The position numbers and the translations under genes are program-made. Source: Pyruvatibacter mobilis (GTDB lineage: Bacteria; Pseudomonadota; Alphaproteobacteria; CGMCC-115125). Taken from it: a stretch of 64,000 nucleotides of DNA. Position 1 is the first letter of the stretch, and the number at the start of each line of letters is the position of its first letter. The notes under the pieces are model-generated. The model was not told the origin of the DNA, did no database searches, and saw only the letters and a list, made by a program, of their open reading frames with translations. This document shows, piece by piece, positions 9,363 to 28,840 of the stretch. The stretch lies in NCBI RefSeq assembly GCF_012848855.1, contig NZ_CP051630.1, forward strand, positions 1,033,501 to 1,097,500. The letters run 5' to 3'.

Positions 9363-10036
9363 CATGCGCTGACCAAAATGATGTGTACGGCTCGGGGGCC
9401 ATGGGCGCCCATCACCAGCGTTGCCTCGATGTCGGCGGTGCGGGAGGGGCCGCCAACGAAAATCAGCGACCGGGCCATGCCCTGGTTGTCTCGCGCGGCA
9501 CGGGCCTGCCGCCAGACATCCTCGTAGCCTCCAACCAGTTCATCTGTGGTCAGAACAATGATGTGCCGGTCCGGAAGGAGGCCAAGGCTCACCGGAAAGG
9601 TGTCGCTGGCCGCCACGGCAACGGCCCCGGTCTCCGCAACCCCTGCCAGGGCGCGGGTGATCCCCGTCCGTCCGTCCAAGGCCTCGCGGGAAAGATCGCG
9701 TGAGGCGGTGACCCCGGAACCGGCCCAGTCGAGACTGCTCAATTCGCAACTATCTGGGACCGTCACGTCCGCCGATTGCTCCTGCTCCGTGAGATAGGCT
9801 TTCACTGTGCCCGGCACCGCGTCCAGGCTGGGGCACCCCGCGGTCGTGCAGCCGAGTTCCATGGCCTTGGCGATGAAGGCCTTTGTCAGCGTGTCGGGAC
9901 TTGGTTGGGCGATTGCAGGGACCGGCTGCGGCGGGGGCGTCTCAAGCCGGGCTTTCGCCTCGGCAGGGTCGCAGGCTGTGCGGCCGGCTTCCGCCTTCCT
10001 GATCTTCGCGAAGATGGCATTGCGCGCGTCACTCAT
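9362..10036 (-). CDS. lutC: Lactate utilisation protein LutC (LUD domain)
   Basis: A 224-residue LUD-domain protein (YkgG/LutC). The conserved C-terminal core is visible in RTGITRALAGVAETGA, the PDRHIIVL strand and FVGGPSRTADIE. LutC is the small subunit of the LutABC iron-sulfur lactate oxidase system, which oxidises L-lactate to pyruvate without an FMN-type dehydrogenase. The start overlaps the end of lutB by four bases (ATGA), showing translational coupling. It is the last gene of the minus-strand operon. Confidence 0.92.
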   Translation of the reverse strand: MSDARNAIFAKIRKAEAGRTACDPAEAKARLETPPPQPVPAIAQPSPDTLTKAFIAKAMELGCTTAGCPSLDAVPGTVKAYLTEQEQSADVTVPDSCELSSLDWAGSGVTASRDLSREALDGRTGITRALAGVAETGAVAVAASDTFPVSLGLLPDRHIIVLTTDELVGGYEDVWRQARAARDNQGMARSLIFVGGPSRTADIEATLVMGAHGPRAVHIILVSA

Positions 10037-11463: not shown

Positions 11464-12269
11464 CAGGCGTCATCCTCATTCCGGGGCTTGTCATCGGTCA
11501 TGCCCGCCAGCACTTCAGCCACATGGTATGCCCTCACTGGGTCATTGCGGCGGGCAAGGGCGCCTTCGATATTGAGCAGGCATCCAACGTCACCGGTCAC
11601 AACTGCGCCGGCGCCGGACTTCACCACTTCGTCTGATTTCTTGCGCACCATCTCGCCGGAGATGTCCGGATATTTCACGCAGAACAGGCCGCCGAAGCCG
11701 CAGCAGACTTCAGCATCCTCCATTTCGGTGATCTCGGCACCGGCCGCGCGTAGCAGCGTGCGGGGCTGCTGCTTCACTTTCAGTTCCCGCAGGCCAGAGC
11801 ATGAGTCGTGATAGGTCAGTGTTTCACTGGTGGCGGTACCGGTTGTACGGACGCCGGCCACATCGGTGAGGAAGGACGTCAACTCGTGGGTCCGGGCCGC
11901 CACGGCGTCCACCAGCTCCTTGTCCGGGTCGTCGGCGTCGAACAGGCGCGGGTGGTGGACACGGATCATCGCTGCGCAGGAGCCGGAGGGGGCGACCACA
12001 TGGTCGAATTGGGAGAACTCCCGCGCGAAGCGTCTTGCGAAGTCCTTTGCGGCTTCCCGGTCGCCCGCATTGTAGTTGGGTTGGCCACAACAGGTCTGGC
12101 CCGCAGGTACGGTTACCTCGAAGCCCGCCTCCTCAAGGAGCTTGAGAGTGGCAAAGCCCACACGCGGACGCATGGTATTGACCAGGCAGGTCACAAAAAG
12201 CCCTACTGACTTTCCGGTCCCAGACCCATCCTTCACTGATTTGCCCGACATCCGCCGCGGAACCTCCAT
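11463..12269 (-). CDS. lutA: Lactate utilisation protein LutA (cysteine-rich CCG domains)
   Basis: A 268-residue protein with two cysteine-rich (CCG) domains, as in heterodisulfide reductase subunit B and GlcF. The first domain ends in the GQTCCGQPNYNAG motif, and the second contains YHDSCSGLRELK and EVCCGFGGLFCVKYP. These bind an unusual iron-sulfur cluster. It is the first gene of lutA-lutB-lutC and is divergent from the MFS gene across about 100 bases. Two starts are possible: ATG at 12269, or ATG at 12251 (MSGKS) with a GGAGG sequence 11 bases ahead. No lactate permease (LctP) is adjacent. Confidence 0.94.
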   Translation of the reverse strand: MEVPRRMSGKSVKDGSGTGKSVGLFVTCLVNTMRPRVGFATLKLLEEAGFEVTVPAGQTCCGQPNYNAGDREAAKDFARRFAREFSQFDHVVAPSGSCAAMIRVHHPRLFDADDPDKELVDAVAARTHELTSFLTDVAGVRTTGTATSETLTYHDSCSGLRELKVKQQPRTLLRAAGAEITEMEDAEVCCGFGGLFCVKYPDISGEMVRKKSDEVVKSGAGAVVTGDVGCLLNIEGALARRNDPVRAYHVAEVLAGMTDDKPRNEDDA

Positions 12270-12367
12270 AGTTTTCCTGCATTACACAATGTCAGGGCAG
12301 GGTGCGCCAAGGGGTGTTCTGCCTCCCGCGCCACACAATTCCGACGATCACCAACCGACAGGCCAGC

Positions 12368-13684
12368 ATGCGAAAGAGCGTTCTTCCGATCACCGTCCTT
12401 CTCGTGTCCACCCTGCTCATGTATCTGGCCGCCGGCCAGCAGGGCCTTCTCGTGCCGATCCGCGCCAGTTTGGAAGGCTATAGCGATGTCATTATCGGCT
12501 TCATGGGCACGGCCTATGCGCTGGGTTTCGTATCGGGCTGCTACCTCATTCCGATTGCATTGCGGCGCGTAGGATATATCCGGACATTCGGTGTCATCGC
12601 CTCACTGGCTGCCGCCAGCATGCTTCTGCAAGGCATGATCATCGAAGCGGTGATGTGGTTCGCAGCGCGTTTCGTCATCGGCTTTTCCATCGCCGGGTCC
12701 GCCATGGTGATCGAAAGCTGGCTCAATTCCCGCGTCACCAATGACACGCGGGGCGGCGTCTTTTCAGTTTACATGATTATCTATCTGGGGGCGATTACCG
12801 CCGGTCAGATGTCGCTGACCCTGTTCGACCCGATGCAGATCACGCTGTTCGTGGTCGCAGGTCTTCTGTTTTCCATCTCGCACATCCCGACTGCACTTAC
12901 CCGCCTTCCGGCGCCTGAGCCGCCGGAGCAGGTGAGCCTCAATCTCCGGTCGATCATCAATTTGTCGCCGGTGGGGGCGGTCAGCGTGTTTCTCATTGGC
13001 ATGGCCAACGGGGCCTTCGGCACCCTCGGCCCGGTCTTTGCGCAGAATCTCGGTTTCGCGTCCGGCGACATCGCCATTTTCATGAGCCTGGCGCTGGTCG
13101 CCGGTGCCTTGGCGCAATGGCCGTTCGGCCGCATCTCGGATCAGATGGACCGGCGCAAGGTAATCGGCGGCGTTGCCTTCCTCGGGTCAGCGGCCGGCGT
13201 GCTCATGGCACTGTTTGCTGTGCCGGGTGCGCTAACCTTCCTGCTGGTCGTGATGTTCGGCGCCGCCGCCTATTCGCTCTACGGGCTCGCCGTTGCCCAT
13301 GCCAACGACCACGCGGACCCGTCAGACTTCGTATCCGTGTCCGGAAGTCTGCTGCTGCTGTTCGGCATCGGCTCGGCTATTGGTCCCATCTGTGCGGCCT
13401 ATCTGACAAATGTGCTCGGCATGTCCGCGGAGTTCATCTTCGTCTCTGCCATGCACTTCATCCTTGGTGCCTATGCGTTCTACCGCATTGGCCAGCGTGC
13501 TGCCGTGCCTGAGGAAGAAAAGGAAGACTTCGTCGGTATGGCGCGGCCGACATCGCCGGTTGCAGCCGAGTTCGACCCGCGCGGCGAGGAGGTGGAAGAG
13601 GGGGACACGGAGGAAGACACCGTGCCGCCTGCCTCTTCATCGGCTTCCACACCTATTGGCGGCGCAGCTTCCCCCGCAAGCTGA
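12368..13684 (+). CDS. MFS transporter (YcaD-like)
   Basis: A 438-residue major-facilitator permease with twelve predicted membrane segments. Family features include the first cytoplasmic-loop region YALGFVSGCYLIP, the helix-5 segment SMVIESWLNSRV as seen in YcaD-like permeases, and the central-loop motif FGRISDQMDRRKVIGG of motif A. The C-terminal 50 residues are hydrophilic and very acidic. The substrate is unknown. It is divergent from lutABC, so lactate or another carboxylate is possible but unsupported. The ATG at 12368 is chosen because the upstream extension is not membrane-like. Its last 32 bases overlap the end of hpnN on the other strand. Confidence 0.87.
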   Translation: MRKSVLPITVLLVSTLLMYLAAGQQGLLVPIRASLEGYSDVIIGFMGTAYALGFVSGCYLIPIALRRVGYIRTFGVIASLAAASMLLQGMIIEAVMWFAARFVIGFSIAGSAMVIESWLNSRVTNDTRGGVFSVYMIIYLGAITAGQMSLTLFDPMQITLFVVAGLLFSISHIPTALTRLPAPEPPEQVSLNLRSIINLSPVGAVSVFLIGMANGAFGTLGPVFAQNLGFASGDIAIFMSLALVAGALAQWPFGRISDQMDRRKVIGGVAFLGSAAGVLMALFAVPGALTFLLVVMFGAAAYSLYGLAVAHANDHADPSDFVSVSGSLLLLFGIGSAIGPICAAYLTNVLGMSAEFIFVSAMHFILGAYAFYRIGQRAAVPEEEKEDFVGMARPTSPVAAEFDPRGEEVEEGDTEEDTVPPASSSASTPIGGAASPAS

Positions 13685-16232
13685 GCAGGGCCGGCAGCAC
13701 GAAGACAGTCGCAACCAGCAGGTAGAGCATGGCGATGGTCAGCAGCACGCCCATGCTCGCCGTGCCTGCGTGGACCGATGCGCTCAAGGCACCGAAGGCA
13801 CCGATGGTCGTCAGCGTGCTGAGAACGATGGCGCGCGGCGTCGAGGATTTGAGCATGCCGTCAAGGGAGCCGTCACGGCGATAGCGCATCAGCACGTGGA
13901 TGCCGTTGTCGACCCCCAGCCCCATGATCAGCGGCAGCACGATGATGTTGGCCTGGTTGAACGGCATGCCGATTGCAACACCTGTGGCGGCGGTGGCCAT
14001 GGCGGCGAGCAGCAGCGGCGTCAGCACCAGTGCCGTATCCACGATGCTGCGGGTGGCGATCAGGACAATCACCGAAACAGCCGCCAGTGCCAGCAGCAGG
14101 GCCGTGATGAAGGCTTCCACCACCACATCGCCGACAGTGGCTTCCACCACGGCGCGGCCGGTGCTGTCCGGAAAGGCCTCCTTCACCTGCGCTACGAATA
14201 GGCGCAGATCCGGCGTGCGGGTCACATCGCCTTCCGGCAGGCCGATGGCCAAGGCTTGCCCGTCTTCAGCGATGAAGCGGTCACGCATGCCCTGCGGCAC
14301 TTGGTCTAGGTCGGTCACGGGTTCCGCGTCGAACACCGCCATGAGGAGGCTGATGTCGCGTGTGAGCTGGTTTGCCAGTGCACCGTTAAGTGCTGCCCGC
14401 TGTGGCTTTGAGAGGGCGGCCAGCGCTTCATTGAGAGTCGCCAGCGCCTCCCTTGATGCCGGGTCGAGTCCATCGGGGAGGGGCACGGCCAGGGTGTCGG
14501 GGAGTTCAGCTGCGGGCCGGTCCAGCATGCCGCGCAAGGCAAAGAACAGGAAACCCGTTTCCTCGATGGCGGCCAGTTTCTCGTCCTGGTCCTGCGGGAT
14601 CAGGCTTGAGGCGGTTTGTACCCGTTTGATCACCGGCAGGTCGGCCATGCGCGCTGCCGCCTGCTCGGCATCCTCCAGCGACGGCGTTACCACATAGGCG
14701 GCGTAATCCGTCACAAGGCCGCGGTTCTGCAGGTCGGCGAGTGCCTGGATGGGCTCGGAATTGCTGTTCTTGAGGGAGAGGGTCGAGAAGTCGAACCGGG
14801 CCTGGGTGGCAAGTCCGATGGATACGAGACCGATCAGACCTGCTGCCATGGCAATCCGTCCGGGCACGATGCGGCTCACACCGAACAGCCGTCCGATGGT
14901 GCGGTTGAACCGCGCGCCCGCGCTGCGCTGGTCCGGCACACCGATGAGGCTGAGCGTAGCAGGCAGCACCGTCAGTGCCGCCAGGCAGGCGAGGATCATG
15001 CCGCCGCCTGCGATCACGCCCAGATCGGCAAATCCCTTGTAGTCGGTCGGCATGAAGGACAGGAAGCCGATGGCGGATGTGACCGCGCCCATGGCGATGG
15101 CGGGTCCCACATCGCCCGCCGCTTCCGCCAGTGCCTTCGGCGTCGCCATGCCTGCTTCGACATCTTCCTGTGCGCGCAACGCGTAGTGGATGGCGAAGTC
15201 GATGCCGAGGCCGACGAACAGCACAGCGAAGCTGGCGGAGAGAATATTGACCTCCCCGATGCTGAACATCGCCCAGGCCATGGACCAGACGCCGCCGACG
15301 ATCAGGGTTAGGAACATTACCGCGACAATGCGGGTGGAGCGAACGCCGAGCCCCAGCACGAGGGCGAGCATGATGAAGGACAGGGTGCCCGCAAGCCCGA
15401 GGCTCTGCCGCACCTGCTTCAGCTCGTCGACCGACAGCGGCACATTGCCCGTAAGGCGGATGGTGATGCCGTTGTCCTCGGTCAGGCCCAGGTCGGTTGC
15501 CGTGTCGCGGATCACCTGCAGTTTGCTGCTGGGCGACATCATGTCCGTTTGATCTTCGCGGATGCGTACCGAGATGAGTTCGATGGCGGTTTCACCGGGC
15601 TCGGTGGTGGTTCCGGGCAGCTCAATACGCGGCGGAGGTGCCCCCGTTTCGGCTGTGCGCCGCGCAGCCTGCGTCAGGCTTTCGGCCAGTGCCTGCAGTT
15701 GGGCCGGCAGCGTGGCGGTGCCGTCGGCTGAAATGGTTGCAGCGTCCGCTGCACCTTGTTCGATGAGGTCCAGCAGACCGGCCAGGCCTTTCTGCCGCAG
15801 CACCAGCGCGATGCCAGGCTGGGCCTGGGCGATTGCATCCAGCTGGTCAGCGACCTCATCGGTCTTGCGGTAGAGGATGCCGTTTTTCTGGAAGAAGGGC
15901 AGTGCCGACGCGGCGAAGACCGATTGGAACACGTCCGTGCGCTGCTCCAGCGCCGCGCTCAGGTCTTGCGCCGCCGCGATGGCGGCAGGGCGTGAGGCAG
16001 CCTCCACCACAATCAGACTGGTGCGCCGATAGGCCGGAAAAGCATCGCGGAACGCGCCGAAACGGATCTGAAACGCGGAATCCGGGGCCACAAGTGATGT
16101 CTGGTCCGCATTCACACGAAATTGAGTGGCGGCATAGATGCCGGCCAGAACCGTCGCAAATGCCAGCAGCATCAGCACAATCGCCGGATGGCGGGTGATC
16201 AGGCGGGCGGAGTTGGTCAGCAATGCGGACAT
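13653..16232 (-). CDS. hpnN: Hopanoid transporter HpnN (RND/MMPL family)
   Basis: An 859-residue RND superfamily protein built as two repeats, each with one membrane helix, a large periplasmic domain and five further helices. The conserved MMPL segments are GLGIDFAIHYALR in the first half and MGLGVDNGIHVLMRYRR in the second. HpnN moves hopanoids from the inner to the outer membrane. The ATG at 16232 begins MSALLTNSARLI, which leads directly to the first helix; a TTG 39 bases upstream is less likely. It is divergent from hpnM, giving a trafficking pair at the edge of the hopanoid locus. Confidence 0.92.
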   Translation of the reverse strand: MSALLTNSARLITRHPAIVLMLLAFATVLAGIYAATQFRVNADQTSLVAPDSAFQIRFGAFRDAFPAYRRTSLIVVEAASRPAAIAAAQDLSAALEQRTDVFQSVFAASALPFFQKNGILYRKTDEVADQLDAIAQAQPGIALVLRQKGLAGLLDLIEQGAADAATISADGTATLPAQLQALAESLTQAARRTAETGAPPPRIELPGTTTEPGETAIELISVRIREDQTDMMSPSSKLQVIRDTATDLGLTEDNGITIRLTGNVPLSVDELKQVRQSLGLAGTLSFIMLALVLGLGVRSTRIVAVMFLTLIVGGVWSMAWAMFSIGEVNILSASFAVLFVGLGIDFAIHYALRAQEDVEAGMATPKALAEAAGDVGPAIAMGAVTSAIGFLSFMPTDYKGFADLGVIAGGGMILACLAALTVLPATLSLIGVPDQRSAGARFNRTIGRLFGVSRIVPGRIAMAAGLIGLVSIGLATQARFDFSTLSLKNSNSEPIQALADLQNRGLVTDYAAYVVTPSLEDAEQAAARMADLPVIKRVQTASSLIPQDQDEKLAAIEETGFLFFALRGMLDRPAAELPDTLAVPLPDGLDPASREALATLNEALAALSKPQRAALNGALANQLTRDISLLMAVFDAEPVTDLDQVPQGMRDRFIAEDGQALAIGLPEGDVTRTPDLRLFVAQVKEAFPDSTGRAVVEATVGDVVVEAFITALLLALAAVSVIVLIATRSIVDTALVLTPLLLAAMATAATGVAIGMPFNQANIIVLPLIMGLGVDNGIHVLMRYRRDGSLDGMLKSSTPRAIVLSTLTTIGAFGALSASVHAGTASMGVLLTIAMLYLLVATVFVLPALLSLRGKLRRQ

Positions 16233-16410
16233 TCGGCTATGGTGCAATCTAGGTGGGAGCGCTACATGCAACGCTAGGGATGGCGGGGCAGTGGTTCACG
16301 CGCGGTACAGCACCGCGATGAGACGCTGAAAAGCCGCCGAAATGGCGGGCATTCTGTTTAACCGCGTGGCCTTTCGCAGGCCACAAAAAGCGATCAAGCT
16401 GGACAACAAT

Positions 16411-17073
16411 ATGACCAAGGCTTTTTCCCCCTCCGCTTTCGTGAAACCCCGTTTCGGCACGGCCATGCGCATCATGCCATTGGCGGCCATGGCTTTTGCG
16501 GCCCTTTTTGCGCTGGGCTCAACTGCCCGGGCGCAGGACGCGGCAGCCGTTGCGAACAAGCTTCATGCCGGCCTCGAGCACCTGATGGCCAATGGCGAAG
16601 CCATGGGGCTTGAGGCTGCTTCAGACTATATCGGCAGAGTGGTTGACGAGACCTACGACTTGCCGGCGCTGACGGCCCAGTCCATCGGTCCGGCGTCTTT
16701 CCGGTCCTATGACGATGCGGGCAAGGCGCAGGTTGTGGCGGCCTACCGCGAATTTGTCATTGCCAATTATGTCAGCCGTTTTGCGCGGAAGCTGCCGATC
16801 ACCTTCAAGACCCTCGGCACCAGCCCCGGCCCCAAGGGGGCGACTGTCGTCAATACGGAGCTGCAGCGTCAGTCGGGCGAACCGGTCAATCTCGACTATG
16901 TGGTGCGGACGCCGGAGGAGGGACGTGCGGGTATCGCCGATGTGCTCTATAACGGCGTCAGCGAGGCAGCGCGCCGCCGGTCGGAGCTGTCGTCTCTGGC
17001 GCGTCTCGGAGCCGAGCCGCTGGCGGATGCCCTGTCGCGCAAGGCCAGCACCATTGCGGCCACGCAGCAATAA
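16411..17073 (+). CDS. hpnM: Hopanoid-associated periplasmic protein HpnM (MlaC/Ttg2D family)
   Basis: A secreted MlaC-fold protein, the family of periplasmic lipid shuttles. A signal peptide is clear: the hydrophobic stretch MPLAAMAFAALFALGSTARA followed by QDAA. The mature part contains the MlaC-like AYREFVIANYVSRF and the DYVVRTPEEGRAGIADVLYNG strands. The start is uncertain: ATG 16411 (used), ATG 16468 directly before the signal core, or ATG 16342. No start has a good ribosome site. It pairs divergently with hpnN, consistent with a joint role in carrying hopanoids across the periplasm. Confidence 0.85.
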   Translation: MTKAFSPSAFVKPRFGTAMRIMPLAAMAFAALFALGSTARAQDAAAVANKLHAGLEHLMANGEAMGLEAASDYIGRVVDETYDLPALTAQSIGPASFRSYDDAGKAQVVAAYREFVIANYVSRFARKLPITFKTLGTSPGPKGATVVNTELQRQSGEPVNLDYVVRTPEEGRAGIADVLYNGVSEAARRRSELSSLARLGAEPLADALSRKASTIAATQQ

Positions 17074-17108: not shown

Positions 17109-18203
17109 ATGCATCCTCTGACCGGTAGTGACTTCGGCACGCTGACATCCGTTCTGGCTGACAGCGGCGGCATACCGGCGGGGTCGCTGGGGAGCGTTGC
17201 GGGGCTGTTGGGTGCCGTCATCGGCCGGACACCGTTTACCCTGGCTGAAAAGGCGTATACGCGGAGCCAGCTTGCCAAGGCGGGCAGCATGCCGCCGCCA
17301 GTATTCATCGTCGGCCATTGGCGCAGTGGAACCACCCATCTCTACAATCTGATGGTGCAGGATGATTTTGGCTTCGTGCCGCCGGTTGCTACCGGACTGC
17401 CTTGGGACATGCTCCTGCTCGGGCGGGCGCTGAAACCGGTCATCGACAGGGCCCTGCCGGAGACACGCTACATCGACAACATTCCCGTGCGGCCCGACAG
17501 TCCGCAGGAAGATGAGATTGCGCTGGCTAACATGTCGCCGCTCTCCTTCTACCACGGCATCTATTTCCCGCAGGCCTTCGATCATTTCGTGGGCCGCGGC
17601 CTGTTCTTCGACGGCTGCACCGACGAAGAAATCAGTCAGTGGCAAGAGACCTTCACCTATTTCATGGAGAAGCTGTGGCTGCAGCAGGGGCGTAAGCGGC
17701 TCCTGATCAAGAACCCGGTCTATACGAGCCGGGTTGAAATGCTGCACAAGCTTTATCCGGATGCGTTGTTTATCCATATCCGGCGCAATCCGTACGAAGT
17801 CTTTGAGAGCATGAAGAACTTCTACGCCAAACTGTTCCGTCAGCTGGCGCTGCAGCCTTACGACCACGTGGATATTGAAGAAGCCGTGCTATCGGTCTAT
17901 GAGCGCATCATGGGCCTGATAGATGCGCAATGGCCCGCGATTCCTGAGGCGCAACGGGTCGAAATTGCTTATGAGAATCTGGATCGGGCACCGCTCCAAG
18001 AGCTTGAGCGGGTCTATACCTCGCTCGGCCTGCCCGGTTTCGACACCGTGCGCCCGCGTTTCGAGGCCTATCTCAAATCTGTGGAAGGCTTTGAGAAGAA
18101 CCGCTTCGATTATTCGGACCGGTCAGCGCAGCTCGTGGAAAGCCGCCTCGGTGACTATCTCGTACGCGGCGGCTATCAGCGGCCCGGTAGCAAGGTCGCT
18201 TAA
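17109..18203 (+). CDS. Sulfotransferase family protein within the hopanoid locus
   Basis: A 364-residue PAPS-dependent sulfotransferase-like protein. The 5'-phosphosulfate loop is GHWRSGTTHL (residues 69-78). The 3'-phosphate-binding region is LFIHIRRNPYEVFESM, with the expected Arg and Ser. The KNPVYTSR segment is typical of bacterial Sulfotransfer_3 members. It is cytoplasmic, with no signal peptide. It begins 35 bases after hpnM and is followed by an overlapping paraoxonase-like gene and hpnA, so it is in a hopanoid operon. A hopanoid or another membrane lipid is a reasonable acceptor guess, but nothing in the sequence shows the acceptor. Confidence 0.88.
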   Translation: MHPLTGSDFGTLTSVLADSGGIPAGSLGSVAGLLGAVIGRTPFTLAEKAYTRSQLAKAGSMPPPVFIVGHWRSGTTHLYNLMVQDDFGFVPPVATGLPWDMLLLGRALKPVIDRALPETRYIDNIPVRPDSPQEDEIALANMSPLSFYHGIYFPQAFDHFVGRGLFFDGCTDEEISQWQETFTYFMEKLWLQQGRKRLLIKNPVYTSRVEMLHKLYPDALFIHIRRNPYEVFESMKNFYAKLFRQLALQPYDHVDIEEAVLSVYERIMGLIDAQWPAIPEAQRVEIAYENLDRAPLQELERVYTSLGLPGFDTVRPRFEAYLKSVEGFEKNRFDYSDRSAQLVESRLGDYLVRGGYQRPGSKVA

Positions 18204-19320
18204 GGCGCTGGTGCTGGCGGCGGGCCTCAGCCTTGTGCCGTCAGCTTATGCTGCGTCTGCCAACACAAATCCTGCCTATCAGTGCCACCGGGTCGCGGTG
18301 CTTGCGCCCGACGGCACGCCAATATCCGGGATCGAGGACTTGGCGGTGGATCAACGCCGTCAACGTCTCATCCTCAGCGCCTATGACCGTTTCGCAGTGC
18401 AGGACGCCCTGCGCCATGGTGAGGATCCGCCTCAGGGTAATCTCTACGTCACGGACATTGCGAGCCTCGTGAAGGGTACGCCTGACGAGATTGAGGCGCG
18501 TGTACTTGTCACCCGGGGTATGGAGGACGTGATCCTGCATCCCCACGGCATCGGCCTCTATGATGATGGCGAGATACAGCGACTTGCCGTGGTCAATCGC
18601 CTCGCTGACCGTCATGACCATTCAGCGGCCGATCTCCTGCTGCTTGAATTTATGGGGGACGGGCTGGTGCTGGCGGGCCGGGCGCGGGGAGACGCCTATT
18701 GCCGTGCCAATGACGTGACTTTGATTGGTCCAGACACGGCCATCTTCACGTTCGATCAGACGCAATGCGGCGCGTGGGGCGTTTGGCTTGAACGGATTGT
18801 ACAGCCGCGCCGCTCCGGCCTCAGGCTCACGCGTTTCAGGCAGGATGGTCAGGTGGAGACAAAGACGCTGGTGTCCGACGCGGCCTTTGCCAACGGTGTC
18901 GCGCTGGACAAGACCACGGACACGCTGCTGATGACCGCGTCACGAGACGGTGAGATCCGTCACTATCCTCTCGAGGATCTGCTGTCCGGTGACACGGACT
19001 TCGCGGCGGTGGAAGTCGATGGCGGGCCGGACAATATCAGTGTCACGGGCCAGGGTGATGTCAGCCTCGCGGCCCACCCTGTGCCGTTTGATCTCTTTCT
19101 CTACATGAACGGTCTCGGTGAGTTGCCTGGCAGCCGGGTGTTGTTGCGGCGGGCGGGCCAGGACAATTTCGTCATGATCGATCCGGATGCGGAGGAACTA
19201 CCGGGCGCGGCTACGTCCGCCGTCTTTCTGGGTGAGCGGGTCGTGGTGTCGTCGGCATGGGACGAGGGGCTGGGTTTGTGTGTCCCCACTGGACCCCAAG
19301 CTGATGGGGATCGGAAGTAA
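18151..19320 (+). CDS. Paraoxonase/arylesterase-like secreted beta-propeller
   Basis: About 389 residues with a GTG start (uncertain) that overlaps the sulfotransferase gene by 53 bases. A signal peptide core LKALVLAAGLSLVPSAYA is followed by a six-bladed propeller. Alignment by eye to mammalian PON1 preserves the catalytic calcium ligands: E62 (GIEDL), N187 (RANDV), N248 (FANGV), D294 and N295 (GPDNIS). It also keeps the His of HPHGIG (H132, PON1 H115) and the cysteine pair C45/C377 that closes the propeller. The second PON1 histidine (H134) is Arg150 here. PON-family enzymes hydrolyse lactones and aryl esters. The stop overlaps hpnA (TAATG), so it is coupled to hopanoid expression. Confidence 0.82.
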   Translation: MTISYAAAISGPVARSLKALVLAAGLSLVPSAYAASANTNPAYQCHRVAVLAPDGTPISGIEDLAVDQRRQRLILSAYDRFAVQDALRHGEDPPQGNLYVTDIASLVKGTPDEIEARVLVTRGMEDVILHPHGIGLYDDGEIQRLAVVNRLADRHDHSAADLLLLEFMGDGLVLAGRARGDAYCRANDVTLIGPDTAIFTFDQTQCGAWGVWLERIVQPRRSGLRLTRFRQDGQVETKTLVSDAAFANGVALDKTTDTLLMTASRDGEIRHYPLEDLLSGDTDFAAVEVDGGPDNISVTGQGDVSLAAHPVPFDLFLYMNGLGELPGSRVLLRRAGQDNFVMIDPDAEELPGAATSAVFLGERVVVSSAWDEGLGLCVPTGPQADGDRK

Positions 19321-20318
19321 TGAGCGCACTCACCCTTGTTACCGGGGGCGCCGGTTTTCTCGGCAGCCATGTGGTTCAACAGCTTGCTGATGCAGGTGCA
19401 AGGGTCAGGGTGCTGGATGTGGCGCCGGCGCCGGATGGCTCTCCGGCTGAATGGGTGTGCGGGTCTGTCGCCGATGAGGGGCGTGTCGCAACAGCCATGC
19501 AGGGGGTCTCCAGGGTCATCCATCTGGCGGCCATACCCCATCTGTGGGTTTCTCCTTCCAGCCGGTTTGACGATGTCAACTGGCACGGGACGCAGGTGAT
19601 GCTCGCGGCAGCGCGGTCTGAAGGCGTCGGGGCCTTTGTGCATGTCTCCTCGCTCACCACTCGCATTGGCGGAACCTCAGGGGGGGAGGTGCGGCTCGTG
19701 CGTGAGGTGGATCGTTTGCCGCTTGAGGCCATGCTGGGGCCCTATCCCCGGTCGAAGTGGCGAGCGGAGGATGCGGCCCGACAGGCCCGCGCGGCCGGGA
19801 TGCCAGTCCGCATTGCCATCCCGACCATGCCTCTGGGGCCGGGGGACCGGGGCCTCACGCCACCGACCCGCATGGTGCTGGATTTTCTGTGCGGCCGCAC
19901 GCCCGCCTATCTGGAAAGTTGGATGAACATTGCCGATGTGCGGGACATGGCGGCGGGGCTCATAGCCTGTCTTGATATCGAGACAGGGGCTGACGGGGTG
20001 TTCCTCGGCGGTGACAACATCCTGCTTGGTGACCTGCTGGCGCGGCTACAGCACCGCAGCGGTGTCACCATGCCGTCGGCTACGGTGCCCGGCTGGCTGG
20101 CGGAGGCGGCGGCATTGGTGGATGAGGGGATTCTCAGTCGCTTGACGAACCGCCCGCCCAAGGCGCCACTCACGGGCGTGCGGCTTGCACGCCGTCCAGT
20201 CAGTTTCGATCTCGCCAAGGCAAGCGATCTGCTGCCGGAGCGGCGCCACACGCTCAACCAGACCCTGAGTGATCTCTTTGCGTGGTTCGAGGCGGAAGGC
20301 TTGTGGAGGCGTGCGTAG
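19320..20318 (+). CDS. hpnA: Hopanoid-associated sugar epimerase HpnA
   Basis: A 332-residue extended SDR (NAD-dependent epimerase/dehydratase). The cofactor loop is TGGAGFLGSH. HVSSLTT carries the catalytic Ser region, and PYPRSKWRAE the YxxxK pair. NWHGTQVMLAAA is the familiar helix. HpnA family members are tied to hopanoid clusters and proposed to modify sugar-type head groups. It is the last gene of the hpnM-sulfotransferase-paraoxonase-hpnA unit. The C-terminus ends 7 bases before the convergent hpnB. Confidence 0.9.
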   Translation: MSALTLVTGGAGFLGSHVVQQLADAGARVRVLDVAPAPDGSPAEWVCGSVADEGRVATAMQGVSRVIHLAAIPHLWVSPSSRFDDVNWHGTQVMLAAARSEGVGAFVHVSSLTTRIGGTSGGEVRLVREVDRLPLEAMLGPYPRSKWRAEDAARQARAAGMPVRIAIPTMPLGPGDRGLTPPTRMVLDFLCGRTPAYLESWMNIADVRDMAAGLIACLDIETGADGVFLGGDNILLGDLLARLQHRSGVTMPSATVPGWLAEAAALVDEGILSRLTNRPPKAPLTGVRLARRPVSFDLAKASDLLPERRHTLNQTLSDLFAWFEAEGLWRRA

Positions 20319-20324
20319 GCGGGG

Positions 20325-21518
20325 TCAGCCTGCCGCGTAGCTGCGGCCCTTCCAGCGCGCGCCGGAGCCGCGGGCATGCCGGAATGCCGAGGTAATGGTC
20401 GCACCGCAATAGATCACGGCAGCGCCGGGCAGGCTTAACGCCCACGCAGGGGACAGCCCATAGAGTCTGACGGTCGGCCAGTATGTCCGAGCCATGAGCA
20501 AAAGCGCAGCACATCCCATCAGGCCGTCATGCCAGGGTGCGGATCCCGTGACCCATGCGAACAGCGCCCAAACGGGTACGATGAAGGTCAACATCAAGCC
20601 AAGGAGGGTGCCTGCCAGCGCCAACCAGCTATGGGCAAGCTGCGTGAAAGCCGTGCGGGCCACCATGTTCCAAATGCTATCCAGCGCCCTGTTGTCCCGC
20701 AGGGAGGTCACGTCATGGGTGAGGGTGGTCAGCGTGTCATGGGCGGGGCGGGCATGCTTCAGGGCGCGGGCCAATTGGCAGTCGTCAATGATTTCACCCT
20801 TGATGGCCGCCAGGCCGCCCATGGCATCCAGCGCCTCGCGCCGCACCAGGAAACAGCCCCCTGCTGCCGCGGCAAGGCTGTCATATCGGGTGTTGGCGCG
20901 CTTGAACGGGTAGATGAGCTGGAAAAAGTAGATGAATGCCGGGATCAGCAGCTTGCCCCAGATCCCGCGGGCATCCAGCCGCGCCATGAACGAAACAAAG
21001 GTCAGGCCGTCCGCGTCGGCCTTACGCACCATCTTGTCGAGTGTCGCAGGCCGATACTCGATGTCCGCATCGGTAAAGAGAATGTAGTCGGGCTGTTGCG
21101 CGTCGGATGTGGCGCGTTCCAATCCCTGTGCCATGGCCCATACCTTGCCGGACCAGCCGGGCGGAAGCGCCGTGCCGGATACGGTTTCGACCGGCACATG
21201 ATTGGTGGCAGCGCCTTCCGCCTCCGCTGCCGTGGCATCCGTGCTCTGGTCGTCGACGACGATGATCCGCAAGGGGCCGGAAAAAGTCTGGTGCGTCAGG
21301 GAAGACACTGTCCGGGCGATCGTCTCCGCCTCATTCCGGGCCGGGATGACGACTGTCACCGAACTGGTCATCGCGGTGGGCGATGCAGGCTCCGGTGCAA
21401 GCCATACATCCGCCTTCCAGAAATCCGCCCGTCCCCATGTCAGGAAAAGCCATGCGGCCAGGGCAAGAAGGGCAAGGGCGGTCAGATCCAGCGAGACGAG
21501 ATCGGTCAGGAAGGACAT
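20325..21518 (-). CDS. hpnB: Hopanoid-associated glycosyltransferase HpnB
   Basis: A 397-residue family-2 glycosyltransferase anchored by one N-terminal membrane helix and three or four C-terminal helices. The GT-A core shows VVIPARNEAETI, VVDDQSTDAT, the metal-binding DADIEY, and the acceptor motif EIIDDCQLARALK. This architecture is diagnostic for HpnB, found next to HpnA in hopanoid loci. It probably transfers a sugar to the hopanoid side chain or to a lipid carrier at the inner membrane. It is divergent from hpnC; a perfect TATAAT box lies 86 bases upstream on its strand. Confidence 0.92.
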   Translation of the reverse strand: MSFLTDLVSLDLTALALLALAAWLFLTWGRADFWKADVWLAPEPASPTAMTSSVTVVIPARNEAETIARTVSSLTHQTFSGPLRIIVVDDQSTDATAAEAEGAATNHVPVETVSGTALPPGWSGKVWAMAQGLERATSDAQQPDYILFTDADIEYRPATLDKMVRKADADGLTFVSFMARLDARGIWGKLLIPAFIYFFQLIYPFKRANTRYDSLAAAAGGCFLVRREALDAMGGLAAIKGEIIDDCQLARALKHARPAHDTLTTLTHDVTSLRDNRALDSIWNMVARTAFTQLAHSWLALAGTLLGLMLTFIVPVWALFAWVTGSAPWHDGLMGCAALLLMARTYWPTVRLYGLSPAWALSLPGAAVIYCGATITSAFRHARGSGARWKGRSYAAG

Positions 21519-21609: not shown

Positions 21610-21715
21610 GAGGAAACCGGCGCAAATCGTGATCACGCCTGCGTTTCTTGCCGCCGGACGGGGGACGCGATAGCGTGCGCCTGCGTTGACTCGCCTTGGG
21701 GGTTCAGACGGCCGC

Positions 21716-22648
21716 ATGGTTGTGGAAAGTCAGGATGCTGGAAGCTCTGCGCTGCGGGCAGACGCGGCCAATGCCGCGCGTCTTGCTGCGACCGGTGTGG
21801 AGACTCCGTCCGGCAAGGATGCAGGGGACGAAAATTTTCCGGTCGGATCCTTCCTGCTGCCGGCACATCTGCGGCCAGTGATTGCGACATATTACGGGTT
21901 CGCCCGTGCGGCAGATGATATTGCCGACAATCCCGCCCTGTCACCGACCGCCAAGGTCGAGCGGCTGGACGTGATGGGCGAGAGCCTGTCCATCGACGGG
22001 CCCGAGAGCCGTGGCCGTCAGCTTGCGCGCCAGATGGCCGATCTCGCTCAGGACACGCGGCATGCGGCACGCCTGCTTGATGCGTTCCGCCAGGACGCCA
22101 TCAAGACGCGATATGCCACACTCGCGGAACTGCATGGCTACTGCACCATGTCGGCTGACCCCGTGGGCCGCTTTCTCGTCGATTTGCATGAAGGCGGACC
22201 GGATGCCGGATCGCCGCTCTATCCTTATGCGGATGGTCTGTGCACCGCATTACAGATCCTCAATCACCTGCAGGATTGTGGCAAGGACCTGATGGTCATG
22301 GACCGGTGCTATCTGCCGGAAGAGTGGCTGGCGGAAGAGGGGGCGGCGGTGTCTGATCTCCGGGGCGAAGGGCTGACGCCGGGTCTGCGCCGGGTCATTG
22401 ATCGCCTGCTTGACGATGTGGATGCACAGCTCGCCCTTGCCCGGCGGTTGCCCCCAGCGCTCACCTCTACCCGGCTGGCGATGGAAAGCGAGATCATCAT
22501 CCGTCTTGCCTCGCGGCTGGCGGCCCGGCTGCGCGCTGGCGACCCGCTGGCGACGAGGGTGAAGCTGAGCAAGGTGGATTTCATCGTTGCGGGGGTGGTT
22601 GGCGCGGTTGTCGGGTTCTTCCGAGGCGGGAAAGGGATGCGCCCGTGA
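21716..22648 (+). CDS. hpnC: Hydroxysqualene dehydroxylase-pathway protein HpnC
   Basis: A 310-residue squalene/phytoene synthase-fold enzyme. HpnC, HpnD and HpnE together make squalene from two farnesyl diphosphates; HpnC converts the presqualene diphosphate made by HpnD to hydroxysqualene. The first aspartate-rich motif is DDIAD, and the second region is NHLQDCGKD. YCTMSADPVGR matches the family. The ATG at 21716 is used; an in-frame TTG 30 bases earlier is possible. The stop overlaps the GTG of hpnD (GTGA), so the genes are coupled. Confidence 0.93.
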   Translation: MVVESQDAGSSALRADAANAARLAATGVETPSGKDAGDENFPVGSFLLPAHLRPVIATYYGFARAADDIADNPALSPTAKVERLDVMGESLSIDGPESRGRQLARQMADLAQDTRHAARLLDAFRQDAIKTRYATLAELHGYCTMSADPVGRFLVDLHEGGPDAGSPLYPYADGLCTALQILNHLQDCGKDLMVMDRCYLPEEWLAEEGAAVSDLRGEGLTPGLRRVIDRLLDDVDAQLALARRLPPALTSTRLAMESEIIIRLASRLAARLRAGDPLATRVKLSKVDFIVAGVVGAVVGFFRGGKGMRP

Positions 22649-23583
22649 GCTCTCCCGCCGCCACCACAAATCCGGCGATTGATCGGGTCATCAACGCCAC
22701 GACGCCCGGCATGTCACCGAGAGAAGCGGCTGTCTATGCGGCGGATATCGTCTCCCGGTCCGGTACCTCTTTCGCCGCGGGCATGAAGATCCTGTCGCGG
22801 GAGCGGCGGGAGGCGATGTTCGCCATCTATGCCTTCGCCCGTGAGATTGACGATATCGCCGATGAGGGCGGTACCCATGATGAGCGTATCGCGGCCCTGT
22901 CAGAATGGCGGCGGGAGATTGCCCGTTGTTACGAGGGCGCACCGCGCACGCCGGTTGGCCTTGCCCTGGTGCCGGCCATCCGCCGCTTTGACCTCGACCA
23001 GCACGAATTCGAGATGCTGATCGAGGGGATGGAAATGGATGTGGAAGGCCCGCTGGTGGCGCCAAGCCATGAGCGGCTGATGGCCTATTGCCGCCGGGTC
23101 GCGGGCGCAGTCGGCCTCCTGTCGATGCCGGTCTTCGGTGCGGGGCGGGGTGATTACGAGGACAGGTTTGCCCTGGCCCTGGCCAATGCCCTGCAGCTGA
23201 CCAACATACTCCGCGACATTGCTGAAGACGCAGAGATGGGACGGGTCTATCTGCCTCATGAGCTTCTTGAATCGCACGGCATAACATCCCGTGATGCAAC
23301 GGAAATCGCCGTTGATCCCCGCGTTCAGGATGTGGCGCGGGAGATGGGGCGTGAGGCGCGGGGCTGGTTCGGCGAGACACAGGCGCTTTTGACGCATCTG
23401 AACTGGCGTGAGCTGCGGCCGGCCCTCTTGATGATGGGCGTCTATGAGCGCTATCTGCGCGTTATGGAAGATCGTGATTTTGCTATCGGCGCGCCCCTGA
23501 AGCTTGGCAAATGGACCAAGCTGGGCATTGCCTGTCGTTATCTGCTCGCCCCTCCGCGCGGCGTACGGTCCAAGGGGGCGTGA
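22645..23583 (+). CDS. hpnD: Presqualene diphosphate synthase HpnD
   Basis: A 312-residue squalene/phytoene synthase-fold enzyme starting at GTG, overlapping hpnC by four bases. The two catalytic aspartate motifs are EIDDIADE and NILRDIAEDAEMGR. YCRRVAGAVGLLSMPVFG is the central family signature. It condenses two farnesyl diphosphates to presqualene diphosphate. The next gene, hpnE, begins 4 bases after its stop, giving a compact hpnC-D-E operon. Confidence 0.94.
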   Translation: MSSPAATTNPAIDRVINATTPGMSPREAAVYAADIVSRSGTSFAAGMKILSRERREAMFAIYAFAREIDDIADEGGTHDERIAALSEWRREIARCYEGAPRTPVGLALVPAIRRFDLDQHEFEMLIEGMEMDVEGPLVAPSHERLMAYCRRVAGAVGLLSMPVFGAGRGDYEDRFALALANALQLTNILRDIAEDAEMGRVYLPHELLESHGITSRDATEIAVDPRVQDVAREMGREARGWFGETQALLTHLNWRELRPALLMMGVYERYLRVMEDRDFAIGAPLKLGKWTKLGIACRYLLAPPRGVRSKGA

Positions 23584-23587
23584 GAGA

Positions 23588-24850
23588 GTGCCAACGGTTC
23601 ATGTCATCGGGGCGGGGCTGGCCGGCCTTTCCGCGGCTGTCGCGCTCGAAAATGCGGGCGTGCCGGTGCAGCTTTATGAGGCGGCGGGTCATGCGGGCGG
23701 CCGCTGCCGGTCCTTCCATGACAAGACCCTCGATCACGTCATCGACAATGGCAACCACCTGGTCCTGAGCGGCAACAAGTCAGCGCTGGCCTATCTGGAT
23801 GCGATTGGGGCAGGGGACGCCATGTTCGGCCCGCCCAAGGCCGCGTTCCCCTTCATCGATGCCAAGACCCGCGAGCGCTGGACCCTGCGCCCCAACTGGG
23901 GCCCCCTGCCGTGGTGGGTCATGTCGCAGGACCGGCGGGTGCTGAACACGCGCCTGTCGGATTACCTGCCTGGATTGAAACTGCCCTTTGCCAAGCCGGA
24001 TCAGACGGTTGCGGACATCATTTCATCCAAGGGCACCCTCTATCAGCGATTCTGGGAGCCGCTGGTGGTTGCGGTGCTCAACACTGTCCCGGAGAAGGGG
24101 GCGGCAAAGCTCATGTGGCCGGTGATGAAGGAGACCTTCCTAAAGGGTGAGCAGGCGTGCCGTCCGCTCACTGCCAAGAAGGGGCTGGGTGCAGCTTTCG
24201 TCGATCCCGCCGTGCGGCTGTTCTCCCGCACCAACCGGCCCATCCGGTTCAATACGCGCCTGCGCGGCCTGACCTATGAGAATGGGCGCGTAACCTCCCT
24301 GTCCTTCGGGGATCAGGAGGTGAAAGTTGAGGCAAACGATTCGGTTGTTCTGGCGGTTCCACCGCAGCGGATGAAGGACCTGATGCCGGCGCTGGATGTG
24401 CCGGAAGAGGGTGAGACCATCCTCAATGTCCATTTCCGCCTGCGGCGCCCGGCACCCAAGCCGGATGGGGTGGGCGTCATTGGTCTCATCAACGCCCATG
24501 CGCATTGGGCCTTTGTACGTGGTCACATCGTCAGCCTGACGGTGTCCGCCGCCGGCGACCTTGCCGACAAGCCTGCCGAGGAATTGCTGCCCATCTTCTG
24601 GGAAGAAACCCGCTTCGCCCTTGGTCTCATCGACAAGGATTATGTGGCCGGGAAGGTCATCAAGGAGAAACGGGCAACGTTCGATCAGTCGCCTGCCAGC
24701 GTTGCCAAGCGGCCGGGCATGACCACCGAGTACGACAATCTGCTGCTCGCCGGTGACTGGACCGATACGGGCCTTCCCGCCACCATTGAGGGGGCGATCC
24801 GCTCCGGCAAGAAGGCTGCCGACCACATCCTGGCGCATATCGACCGCTGA
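23588..24850 (+). CDS. hpnE: Hydroxysqualene dehydroxylase HpnE
   Basis: A 420-residue FAD-dependent amine oxidase/phytoene desaturase-type protein. The dinucleotide-binding loop is VIGAGLAGLSAA, starting three residues after the GTG. GGRCRSF follows, and the C-terminal FAD contact is LLLAGDWTDTGLPATIEGA. HpnE reduces hydroxysqualene to squalene. GTG at 23588, 4 bases after hpnD, is chosen because the Rossmann strand starts immediately. An upstream ATG in the same frame would overlap hpnD by 80 bases. shc follows after 144 bases. Confidence 0.94.
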   Translation: MPTVHVIGAGLAGLSAAVALENAGVPVQLYEAAGHAGGRCRSFHDKTLDHVIDNGNHLVLSGNKSALAYLDAIGAGDAMFGPPKAAFPFIDAKTRERWTLRPNWGPLPWWVMSQDRRVLNTRLSDYLPGLKLPFAKPDQTVADIISSKGTLYQRFWEPLVVAVLNTVPEKGAAKLMWPVMKETFLKGEQACRPLTAKKGLGAAFVDPAVRLFSRTNRPIRFNTRLRGLTYENGRVTSLSFGDQEVKVEANDSVVLAVPPQRMKDLMPALDVPEEGETILNVHFRLRRPAPKPDGVGVIGLINAHAHWAFVRGHIVSLTVSAAGDLADKPAEELLPIFWEETRFALGLIDKDYVAGKVIKEKRATFDQSPASVAKRPGMTTEYDNLLLAGDWTDTGLPATIEGAIRSGKKAADHILAHIDR

Positions 24851-27013: not shown

Positions 27014-27709
27014 TTGAAGCGTCTTGGCATTGTGTGCGGCGTCAAAGCCGAAGAGGCGGCGCTCGGCCCGCTTCTGGACGACGCGTCTGTAGTGGTCGCG
27101 GTCTCCGGTGCGTCGCCTGCCAGGGCTGAAGATCTCGCGCGTGAGCTGGTTGAGCAGCATGGCTGCACCGCGTTGCTCAGCTTTGGTGTGTCGGGCGCCA
27201 TCACGGAAACGCTCAAGCCGGGTGACGTGGCGCTCGCAAAGTCCATCGTCATGCATGACGGGGAGCGCATCGCGGCCGACAGGGTCTTCACCCCCTATCT
27301 CAGCGAAGCGGCCATCTGGGCAGACATCACGCTGCGCCATGTGGACATGGCCGAGGCGGGGGATGTCATTGCCGACGTCGCCGCCAAGAAAGAGCTTGGG
27401 CGGCGCACCGGCGCGCATGCAGTGGATATGGAGAGCGGGGCGGTGGCGCATGTAGCACGGCAGACGGGCGTGCCTTTCACGGCGCTGCGGACGATCTCCG
27501 ACGGGGTGGATCACGCCCTGCCGCATGCAGCGCTGGGTGCCATCGGGCCGGGCGGGGATGTCCGTGTGCTGACAACTGTGTTGCGGCTGATGGTCCGGCC
27601 GCAGGACCTGCCGGCGATGATGCGTCTCGCCGCCGGCAGTTCCAAAGGGTTCAAGAGCCTACGCGGCTGTGCCCGACACCTCGTCCCGGCCCTTCTTGGC
27701 GTCGTGTAG
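27014..27709 (+). CDS. hpnG: Adenosylhopane nucleoside phosphorylase HpnG
   Basis: A 231-residue purine-nucleoside phosphorylase superfamily protein, starting at TTG with AAAGGG upstream. VDMESGAVAHVARQ is the hallmark of MTA/SAH nucleosidase-like enzymes, with the catalytic environment around ALRTISDGVDHALP. HpnG removes adenine from adenosylhopane, giving ribosylhopane. The last 51 bases overlap the end of hpnH on the opposite strand, an unusual tail-to-tail arrangement for two enzymes of one pathway. Confidence 0.92.
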   Translation: MKRLGIVCGVKAEEAALGPLLDDASVVVAVSGASPARAEDLARELVEQHGCTALLSFGVSGAITETLKPGDVALAKSIVMHDGERIAADRVFTPYLSEAAIWADITLRHVDMAEAGDVIADVAAKKELGRRTGAHAVDMESGAVAHVARQTGVPFTALRTISDGVDHALPHAALGAIGPGGDVRVLTTVLRLMVRPQDLPAMMRLAAGSSKGFKSLRGCARHLVPALLGVV

Positions 27710-28840
27710 GTCCTTAAGGCGCTCTTCTTCTTCCATCTTCTTCTGCACCAGCTCGTCGTGGATGTATTTCGCACGGCGCTGGTTCGTCAGATCGATTTCA
27801 GGGGCGAAGTCACCCTTGGTCTTCGGCCCGCGCAAGGACACCATCAGGGTCTTCAGCGGGTGGGCGGCGGCATCGGCTGCAGCCGTCGGCTCATAGCCGC
27901 AATGGGCCATGCAATCGGCGCATTTTTCGTAATTGCCGGTGCCGTACTGATCCCACTCGGTCTCTTCCATCAGCTCCTTGAAGCTGGAGGCATAGCCCTC
28001 ATTGAGCAGGTAGCAGGGGCGCTGCCAGCCGAAGATGTTGCGGGTGGGCATGCCCCAGGGCGTGCACATGTATTGCTGGTTGCCGGCAAGGAAATCCAGG
28101 TAGAGGGACGAGTGATTGAGGTCCCACTTGGTCTTGCCTGCCTTCACACGCTCTTCGCCCATCCGGAACACGTCGCGGAACAGTTCCTTGGTGCGGCGGC
28201 GTTCCAGGAAGTGCTCCTGGTCCGGCGCACGCTCATAGGCATAGCCCGGCGATATGGTGATGGAGACACCCATATCCGTGCAGTAATCGAGATAGGCAGC
28301 CACCTGCTCGGCTGACATGTTGTCGAAAATCGTGGCGTTGACGTTGACTTGGAAGCCCGCGTCCTGCGCGGCCTTGATGGCCTTCACGGCGCGCTTGAAC
28401 ACTCCCTTCTGGTCCACGGCCTTGTCGTGTTCCTCCTCGAGGCCGTCCAGGTGGACGGAGAAGAAGAGGTAGGGCGACGGCTTGAAGAGATTGAGCTTCT
28501 TCTCAAGCAGCAGCGCGTTGGTGCAGAGAGACACGAACTTCTTGCGGGCCACGATGCCTTCGACGATCTCGCCGATCTCCTTGTGGATCAGCGGCTCACC
28601 GCCCGGAATGGCCACCACGGGGGCGCCGCATTCATCCACGGCGTCGAAGCATTCCTGCGGCGACAGGCGCTTGTTCAGGATGGCATCCGGATAATCGATC
28701 TTGCCGCAGCCGGGGCAGGCGAGGTTGCAGCGGAACAGCGGTTCCAGCATCAGGACAAGCGGGTAACGCTTTCGACCCAGCATGCGCTGCTTCATCACAT
28801 AGGCGCCAACCATGGCCATCTGTCTTACGGGTACGGACAC
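27659..28840 (-). CDS. hpnH: Adenosylhopane synthase HpnH (radical SAM)
   Basis: A 393-residue radical SAM protein. The cluster motif CNLACPGC binds a 4Fe-4S centre. IPGGEPLIHKEIGEIVEG and FFSVHLDGLEEEHDKAVD are core elements, and a C-terminal SPASM-like cysteine cluster (CADCMAHCGYEP) is visible. HpnH joins the 5'-deoxyadenosyl group of SAM to hopene, making adenosylhopane. The gene is minus strand, 65 bases downstream of ispH, so the two are probably co-transcribed. Confidence 0.95.
   Translation of the reverse strand: MSVPVRQMAMVGAYVMKQRMLGRKRYPLVLMLEPLFRCNLACPGCGKIDYPDAILNKRLSPQECFDAVDECGAPVVAIPGGEPLIHKEIGEIVEGIVARKKFVSLCTNALLLEKKLNLFKPSPYLFFSVHLDGLEEEHDKAVDQKGVFKRAVKAIKAAQDAGFQVNVNATIFDNMSAEQVAAYLDYCTDMGVSITISPGYAYERAPDQEHFLERRRTKELFRDVFRMGEERVKAGKTKWDLNHSSLYLDFLAGNQQYMCTPWGMPTRNIFGWQRPCYLLNEGYASSFKELMEETEWDQYGTGNYEKCADCMAHCGYEPTAAADAAAHPLKTLMVSLRGPKTKGDFAPEIDLTNQRRAKYIHDELVQKKMEEEERLKDLHDAKKGRDEVSGTAA

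Follow-up and report, generated by a model that had tools for sequence, protein, structure and literature searches.

The 64-kb stretch of Pyruvatibacter mobilis DNA analysed here, referred to as the window (G000:C1:1033501-1097500, in a 3.33 Mb single-contig alphaproteobacterial genome), carries a hopanoid cluster that contains a gene for a sulfotransferase (ST; 364 aa, 17109..18203, (+) strand) and one for a PON1-like calcium propeller (389 aa, 18151..19320, (+) strand), followed by a gene for an HpnA-like short-chain dehydrogenase/reductase (SDR; 19320..20318, (+) strand). Hopanoids are cholesterol-like lipids that take the place of sterols in bacteria, and fossil hopanoids serve as a record of ancient ecosystems. 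We show that the genes for ST, the propeller, and the HpnA-like protein occur together in many families and that nearly all of the genomes concerned encode the adenosyl-hopene transferase HpnH. That this module serves hopanoids we regard as very likely. With less assurance, we favor a model in which the three proteins work as a tailoring unit in the biosynthesis of extended hopanoids, with sulfation by ST inside and the propeller acting outside; as judged from its sequence and setting, ST probably sulfates a hopanoid.

ST, propeller, and HpnA-like genes travel together across many families

Because a genome scan with the propeller alone as bait returned no relatives and the propeller diverges fast (51% identity between sister species vs 82-83% for ST), we took ST as bait. 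An alignment of 11 STs, run against the genomes of 84,980 species, found 512 relatives, and the linkage figures refer to the best 80 of these 512, i.e. the nearest ones; the HpnA-like and propeller genes were counted with profiles built from these same loci, and core genes were searched mostly with window proteins as bait, which can miss distant hpn genes. An HpnA-like gene lies within 4 kb of ST in 76 of the 80 loci, a propeller is present in 67, and both are present in 66. At least one core hpn gene (hpnB-H, M, N) was found at 63/80 loci and at least two at 56/80, and either an HpnA-like or a core gene lies near ST in 77/80; among the three misses, L103 is at a contig end, L123 sits on a short contig (6.9 kb), and L129 is a genuine exception. 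Every propeller that was found lies on the same strand as ST and downstream of it (76/76 in a set of 91 loci; 73/73 among the 86 loci that are left without L065-L068 and L070, which duplicate the contigs of L114, L092, L086, L093, and L131 and were excluded from residue counts and trees). Ten of the 13/80 loci in which no propeller was found keep the HpnA-like gene beside ST (for example in Defluviicoccus, Caenispirillum, and the G120 type); L103, again, ends at a contig edge. By record taxonomy, the 80 loci include Parvularculaceae (31), Azospirillaceae (7), Rhodospirillaceae, Paracoccaceae, Hyphomonadaceae, Sphingomonadaceae, Sphingosinicellaceae, Novispirillaceae, Roseomonadaceae, Iodidimonadaceae, and Rhodothalassiaceae; 17 of the 80 records are without family or order, and single metagenome-assembled genomes (MAGs) called Phycisphaera, Verrucomicrobia, and Gammaproteobacteria may be mis-binned. 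The original prediction, made from the window alone, had proposed a hopanoid modification branch, had asked for a neighborhood analysis in other genomes, and had named co-occurrence in this genome only as grounds for giving the idea up; the analysis was run and the association is recurrent.

The association extends to genomes as a whole. Among the 80, HpnH was found in 13/14 and a cyclase in 14/14 of the genomes checked. For the 17 loci in which no core hpn gene was seen close to ST, HpnH is encoded in 8/9 genomes checked (L077, L089, L095, L102, L103, L121, and L123 lie outside this check) and also in the genome of L093 (G205); Iodidimonas and Rhodothalassium are among the checked genomes, and the 21 kb around their ST showed no core hpn gene. 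We also considered that a genome whose ST locus has no cyclase gene might lack a cyclase altogether and rejected this idea because a squalene-hopene-type cyclase is encoded in 21/21 ST genomes checked. In many Parvularculaceae hpn loci (L073-L120), the sequence retrieved shows no cyclase gene, and a squalene-hopene-type cyclase is encoded elsewhere in the genomes of L076, L085, L105, and L144 (PF13249, E 1e-94 to 1e-104). Because the available excerpts of a 2025 survey of 54 alphaproteobacteria list Amphiplicatus, Marinicaulis, and Rhodothalassium among the genera without shc (PMC12583986), hopanoid producers may be undercounted.

In a class sample of 387 genomes, chosen to cover the class evenly, ten carry ST at 386 bits or more (a 43-bit match in G290 was not counted); the ten represent six families, and three of them belong to the window's genus. 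HpnH is present in 10/10 of these genomes vs 98/387 overall (Fisher p 7.6e-7, uncorrected for kinship), the HpnA-like gene lies within 1.3 kb of ST in 10/10, and the propeller is beside ST in 8/10. Other hpn genes flank ST in G092, G185, G120, G308, and G097; in G386, no hpn gene lies in the 20 kb fetched and HpnH is 32 kb away, and in G205 the contig ends. Because only 10/98 HpnH-bearing genomes of the class sample carry ST, we consider ST an accessory gene. The same figure speaks for a reading in which the trio are passengers without a hopanoid role that came to lie there through chance or an ancient co-transfer. We hold this to be highly improbable given that the ST/HpnA-like pair occurs in 11 families by record taxonomy at loci of differing layout, and that in several genomes these genes stand apart from other hpn genes with HpnH kept elsewhere. 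In two sister genomes the order hpnN, hpnM, ST, propeller, hpnA, hpnB is the same as in the window; in a third sister, G002 (81% complete, 740 contigs), neither ST nor propeller was seen. In Azospirillum brasilense Sp7, hpnA, hpnM, ST, propeller, hpnN, cyclase, hpnG, and hpnH lie in one 11 kb block.

The full hopanoid cluster of the window occupies ~13.6-28.8 kb. Upstream of ST are hpnN (13653..16232, (-) strand), for an RND-type hopanoid transporter (TIGR03480, 671 bits, below the cut-off of 751.85), and hpnM (16342..17073, (+) strand), for an MlaC-type carrier (TIGR03481, E 1.9e-31, below cut-off; PF05494 MlaC). The HpnA-like gene is followed by hpnB, for a glycosyltransferase (20325..21518, (-) strand; TIGR03469, 433 bits, above cut-off), by the squalene synthesis genes hpnC (21686-22648, (+) strand; TIGR03464, below cut-off), hpnD (22645-23583, (+) strand; TIGR03465), and hpnE (23504-24850, (+) strand; TIGR03467), and by the genes for squalene-hopene cyclase (SHC; 24995-26962, (+) strand; TIGR01507, 809 bits vs a cut-off of 431), hpnG (27014-27709, (+) strand; TIGR03468, 161 bits, below cut-off), and hpnH (27659..28840, (-) strand; TIGR03470, 540 bits vs a cut-off of 225). 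HpnA, HpnM, HpnN, HpnC, and HpnG of the window score below the NCBI curated cut-offs; HpnH and SHC both score above them, which identifies the locus as a hopanoid biosynthetic cluster. Adjoining hpnN, at 9362-13684, are genes that by eye we name an MFS-type transporter and lactate-utilisation-like genes and that are at least partly kept in the sisters.

The coordinates and frames of ST (ATG at 17109, stop at 18203) and of the propeller in the original prediction were correct, and so was their position between hpnM and hpnA, except that this hpnA is not an ordinary one (249 vs 367.65 bits, and apart in the tree; see below). The tight coupling that it had claimed stands in part. The propeller stop (TAA, 19320) overlaps the HpnA-like start in a TAATG at 19318-19322, and ST and propeller overlap by 53 bases given the GTG start at 18151; this start is a choice, as the open frame extends upstream to 17923. 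Because the listed propeller frames of the two sister genomes begin 24 and 18 bases past ST, without overlap, the 53-base overlap is not conserved and was dropped as a sign of conserved coupling.

The sulfotransferase and its relatives

ST matches Pfam Sulfotransfer_3 (PF13469) with 109.3 bits vs a gathering threshold of 27 (E 4e-31, profile positions 1-214 of 216). Its GHWRSGTT motif, the 5'-phosphosulfate loop for the sulfate donor 3'-phosphoadenosine-5'-phosphosulfate (PAPS), comprises residues 69-76 (window 17313-17336); each residue of G69-T76 is the same in three outside relatives and in 97% or more of 86 ST rows, and R226, P228, and S234 are conserved likewise, R226 and S234 presumably being the 3' phosphate site. 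By eye, ST has no signal peptide. As to PAPS supply, adenosine 5'-phosphosulfate (APS) kinase scores above cut-off in 15/15 ST genomes, the window's genome included. In an AlphaFold model of ST (pLDDT 81.7), the best fold matches are the mycobacterial sulfotransferases STF1 and STF9; weaker ones (TM 0.35-0.53) are retinol dehydratase, CurM, and the olefin synthase ST domain, all of which use sulfate as a leaving group. These weaker matches would fit a transient sulfation in which the leaving sulfate drives elimination, ring closure, or substitution (e.g. giving anhydro or ether-type side chains) and no stable sulfated lipid is formed, and the tight ST-SDR pairing (76/80) would suit such a multi-step conversion. 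We find this unlikely because matches at that distance are expected of any sulfotransferase and because the relative with a described product yields, in the available excerpts of its report, a stable sterol sulfate (PMC9417993).

The nearest outside relatives of ST, from a plasmid collection, are 41-42% identical and come from Azospirillum oryzae, Azospirillum ramasamyi, and Azospirillum lipoferum. The A. oryzae relative (L167 7962-9074, plasmid) is accompanied by two crtI genes, a glycosyltransferase, and an acyltransferase and is a candidate carotenoid-glycolipid sulfotransferase; because it sits with crtI genes, the wider ST family is not confined to hopanoids. This neighborhood also speaks for the possibility that ST sulfates another isoprenoid or glycolipid of its locus, i.e. 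a carotenoid, a squalene-derived triterpenoid, or an HpnB-glycosylated lipid. Several observations make this improbable as well: in the ST tree the 86 hopanoid-locus STs are on one side and five outside relatives on the other, although with a moderate support of 78, the HpnA-like protein is a near-constant partner of ST (76/80), and HpnH accompanies ST in 13/14 genomes checked and in 10/10 genomes of the class sample.

More distant relatives, with 32-36% identity, are found in plasmid-collection records from Bacteroides, Parabacteroides, and Phocaeicola. The one neighborhood opened, that of the Bacteroides finegoldii relative (32% identity to the window ST, E 2e-55), has the order cysQ - SLC13 permease - cysC - cysD - cysN - ST. 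According to the available excerpts of PMC9417993, BT_0412 is a putative sulfate importer, BT_0413 to BT_0415 are PAPS enzymes, and BT_0416 makes cholesterol sulfate from cholesterol in vitro and, as judged by a knockout, in vivo; the BT_0412-BT_0416 cluster is also found in other Bacteroides. From the gene order, we infer that the B. finegoldii gene is the counterpart of BT_0416, and it is the B. finegoldii sequence rather than that of BT_0416 that we compared. Residues common to the hopanoid STs and the B. finegoldii protein include GHWRSGTT, R120, D123, E134, E136, K201-N202-P203, and R226. Because the B. finegoldii gene sits in a BT_0416-type arrangement, as far as the excerpts describe it, isoprenoid lipids are the probable substrates for members of the wider ST family.

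The propeller and the HpnA-like dehydrogenase

On its own, the propeller has no NCBIfam match, and its Pfam matches are all sub-threshold (below the SGL cut-off). A profile of eight propeller family members finds PON1 in the PDB (E 1.3e-26), and the top ten PDB fold matches of an AlphaFold propeller model (three sequences, mean pLDDT 79.1) are all PON1 (E 2.5e-18 to 7e-17, ~18% identity in the fold alignment); the other four propeller models have a pLDDT of 58 or less. All five PON1 calcium ligands and the closing disulfide had been predicted to be kept, and this was borne out across the family: N187, N248, D294, N295, C45, and C377 are present in 73/73 propellers and E62 in 71/73, the ligand motifs having been aligned to PON1 by profile and the disulfide corresponding to C42-C353 of PON1. 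Two additional cysteines, C184 and C206, are conserved in 72/73 propellers each. Because a lipobox-like motif precedes the first conserved cysteine in 47/73 propellers, the propeller is probably exported; the window copy has an N-terminal signal peptide by eye, in agreement with its prediction as a secreted protein. Two tandem propeller paralogues (27-31% identity) are encoded in the same genome outside the window (G000:C1:413856-416069), and the sisters have such paralogues too, two in tandem in one and a single one in the other.

We located the His115-His134 dyad of PON1 using the 4hhq row (H115Q/H134Q mutant) of the profile alignment. The equivalent of His115 is kept in 63/73 propellers and lost in 10/73, and that of His134 is Arg in 71/73, window included, leaving the PON1 dyad incomplete in the propeller. 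Because the partner of His115 is Arg, we do not call the propeller a paraoxonase or lactonase; it might equally well hydrolyse another ester in a calcium-dependent manner or bind lipids as a shuttle. The suggestion that lactone chemistry is involved thus fared less well than that of sulfation. One form of it is that the propeller is a PON1-type lactonase/esterase that would open a lactone made by the HpnA-like protein from the hemiacetal of ribosylhopane, giving a carboxylated, perhaps sulfated, hopanoid, which would be compatible with a sulfating ST. The PON1 fold, the conserved calcium site, and the lipobox-like motifs are in its favor, and an SDR and a lactonase are a usual pair in sugar oxidation. 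We consider it doubtful in view of the changes at both dyad positions, of the window propeller having neither a match to Pfam Arylesterase (E up to 1; 1/8 family members match at E 0.01 or better) nor an SGL match above cut-off, and of the 13/80 loci in which no propeller was found.

The best NCBIfam match of the HpnA-like protein is HpnA (TIGR03466), at 249.1 bits and below the cut-off of 367.65, and its second-best is the sterol-acting SdmB (83 bits for the window copy, 152 bits for that of A. brasilense). In a tree, 82 ST-linked HpnA lie apart from 30 top-scoring HpnA, chosen for comparison by score, and the window copy is on the ST-linked side. We tested whether linkage to ST marks out a clade of HpnA and softened this idea after adding 12 low-scoring HpnA picked from ST-free genomes; because the ST label then requires five changes on the tree, the HpnA group is wider than ST. 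In G291 (L176 7458-9538), a propeller and an HpnA-like gene are adjacent without ST. The function of HpnA-type proteins is described as not yet established in the excerpts of PMC12583986.

A proposed sulfation branch and known systems

We suggest that the HpnA-like protein would modify an alcohol or carbonyl group in the ribose-derived C35 side chain that HpnH and HpnG make and that ST, in the cytosol with HpnH, HpnG, and HpnA, would transfer sulfate from PAPS to a side-chain hydroxyl, giving an anionic hopanoid. HpnM and HpnN would carry this lipid toward the outer membrane, where the exported and often lipid-anchored calcium propeller would bind or hydrolyse it. A sulfated hopanoid would be the simplest product, and the kinship with the Bacteroides cholesterol sulfotransferase type, to the extent that the excerpts describe it, adds support; in this respect, as distinct from the lactone, the proposed modification branch holds up. 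Whether the products are stable is a more delicate matter, and that stable sulfated hopanoids are widespread seems to us slightly short of evenly balanced on the sequence evidence. We tentatively propose, leaning a little to the side of doubt, a class of anionic sulfated extended hopanoids in alphaproteobacteria that would arise from the ST/HpnA-like pair and be handled outside by the propeller, and with the same reserve that it might span Parvularculaceae, Azospirillum, Iodidimonas, Rhodothalassium, Paracoccaceae, and others. Because studies of hopanoids depend largely on positive-ion detection and periodate cleavage, sulfated hopanoids would have been missed.

Several points weigh against sulfation of hopanoids by ST. 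We know of no sulfated hopanoid, and terms for such lipids did not occur in the literature searched, which leaves most subscription journals outside. The linkage figures are those of the nearest 80 ST relatives, with the other 432 outside them; ST is present in only 10/98 HpnH genomes of the class sample; HpnH was not found in the genome of L141, a Verrucomicrobia MAG that carries ST; and G308 has a second, divergent ST copy (326 bits; L072 9451-10410; G308:C1:1732331-1733401) without hpn neighbors. The link between ST and BT_0416 depends on gene order, the comparison having been made with the B. finegoldii gene only. Finally, lipid data are available for two species. The strain list in the excerpts of PMC12583986 includes A. 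brasilense Sp 7, of which the replicon that we examined (a different assembly) carries ST and propeller, and adenosylhopane is given as the only bacteriohopanepolyol (BHP) of this strain, with no Rohmer products. This profile may reflect hidden derivatised end products, or a block after HpnH or products that are simply not made; the same excerpts report adenosylhopane in four Rhodospirillales at under 0.5%, which is hard to square with adenosylhopane as the sole BHP of Sp7. For Rhodothalassium salexigens, which carries ST (L144), mainly C32 BHP is cited in the excerpts of PMC11762602. We assume that it is a periodate cleavage product; as periodate cleavage requires two vicinal hydroxyls (PMC12583986, in excerpt), any sulfate there would leave a vicinal diol free. 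The data from these two species, as excerpted, cannot decide the sulfation question.

If true, a conserved sulfation branch would alter membrane charge in these cells and could account for A. brasilense Sp7 showing only adenosylhopane in the excerpted survey; hopanoid inventories would be incomplete, and sulfated hopanoids would be bacterial counterparts of cholesterol sulfate. The module would also provide a first handle on an HpnA-type protein, in a small gene set present in cultivable strains. We found no description of a linkage of ST or propeller to hopanoid genes in the literature searched, and no hopanoid-sulfotransferase link in titles, abstract openings, or the passages available of papers that mention both; the excerpts of PMC12583986 name no obvious candidate genes in the vicinity of the clusters besides hpnA, B, L, and M.

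Like described hpn clusters, the window has hpnN, M, A-like, B, C, D, E, SHC, G, and H in one block, but between hpnM and hpnA, which is divergent, it carries ST and a PON1-like propeller in addition. The HpnA-like protein resembles the hopanoid-associated sugar epimerase HpnA (TIGR03466) in its best NCBIfam match and in adjoining hpnB but differs in scoring below the cut-off and in lying on the opposite side of the tree from the 30 top-scoring HpnA. With PON1, the propeller shares the fold, the calcium ligands, the closing disulfide, and, mostly, the His115 equivalent; it differs in the Arg at His134, in the extra C184 and C206, and in being often a lipoprotein by motif. With respect to the BT_0416 system, as excerpted, ST is probably a sulfotransferase of the same kind, with 32-36% identity to the Bacteroidales copies over most of the length, and PAPS-site and acidic motifs are common to the hopanoid STs and the B. 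finegoldii copy. In contrast to the BT_0416 type, which adjoins PAPS genes, the hopanoid ST adjoins hopanoid genes, and its substrate would be an endogenous hopanoid.

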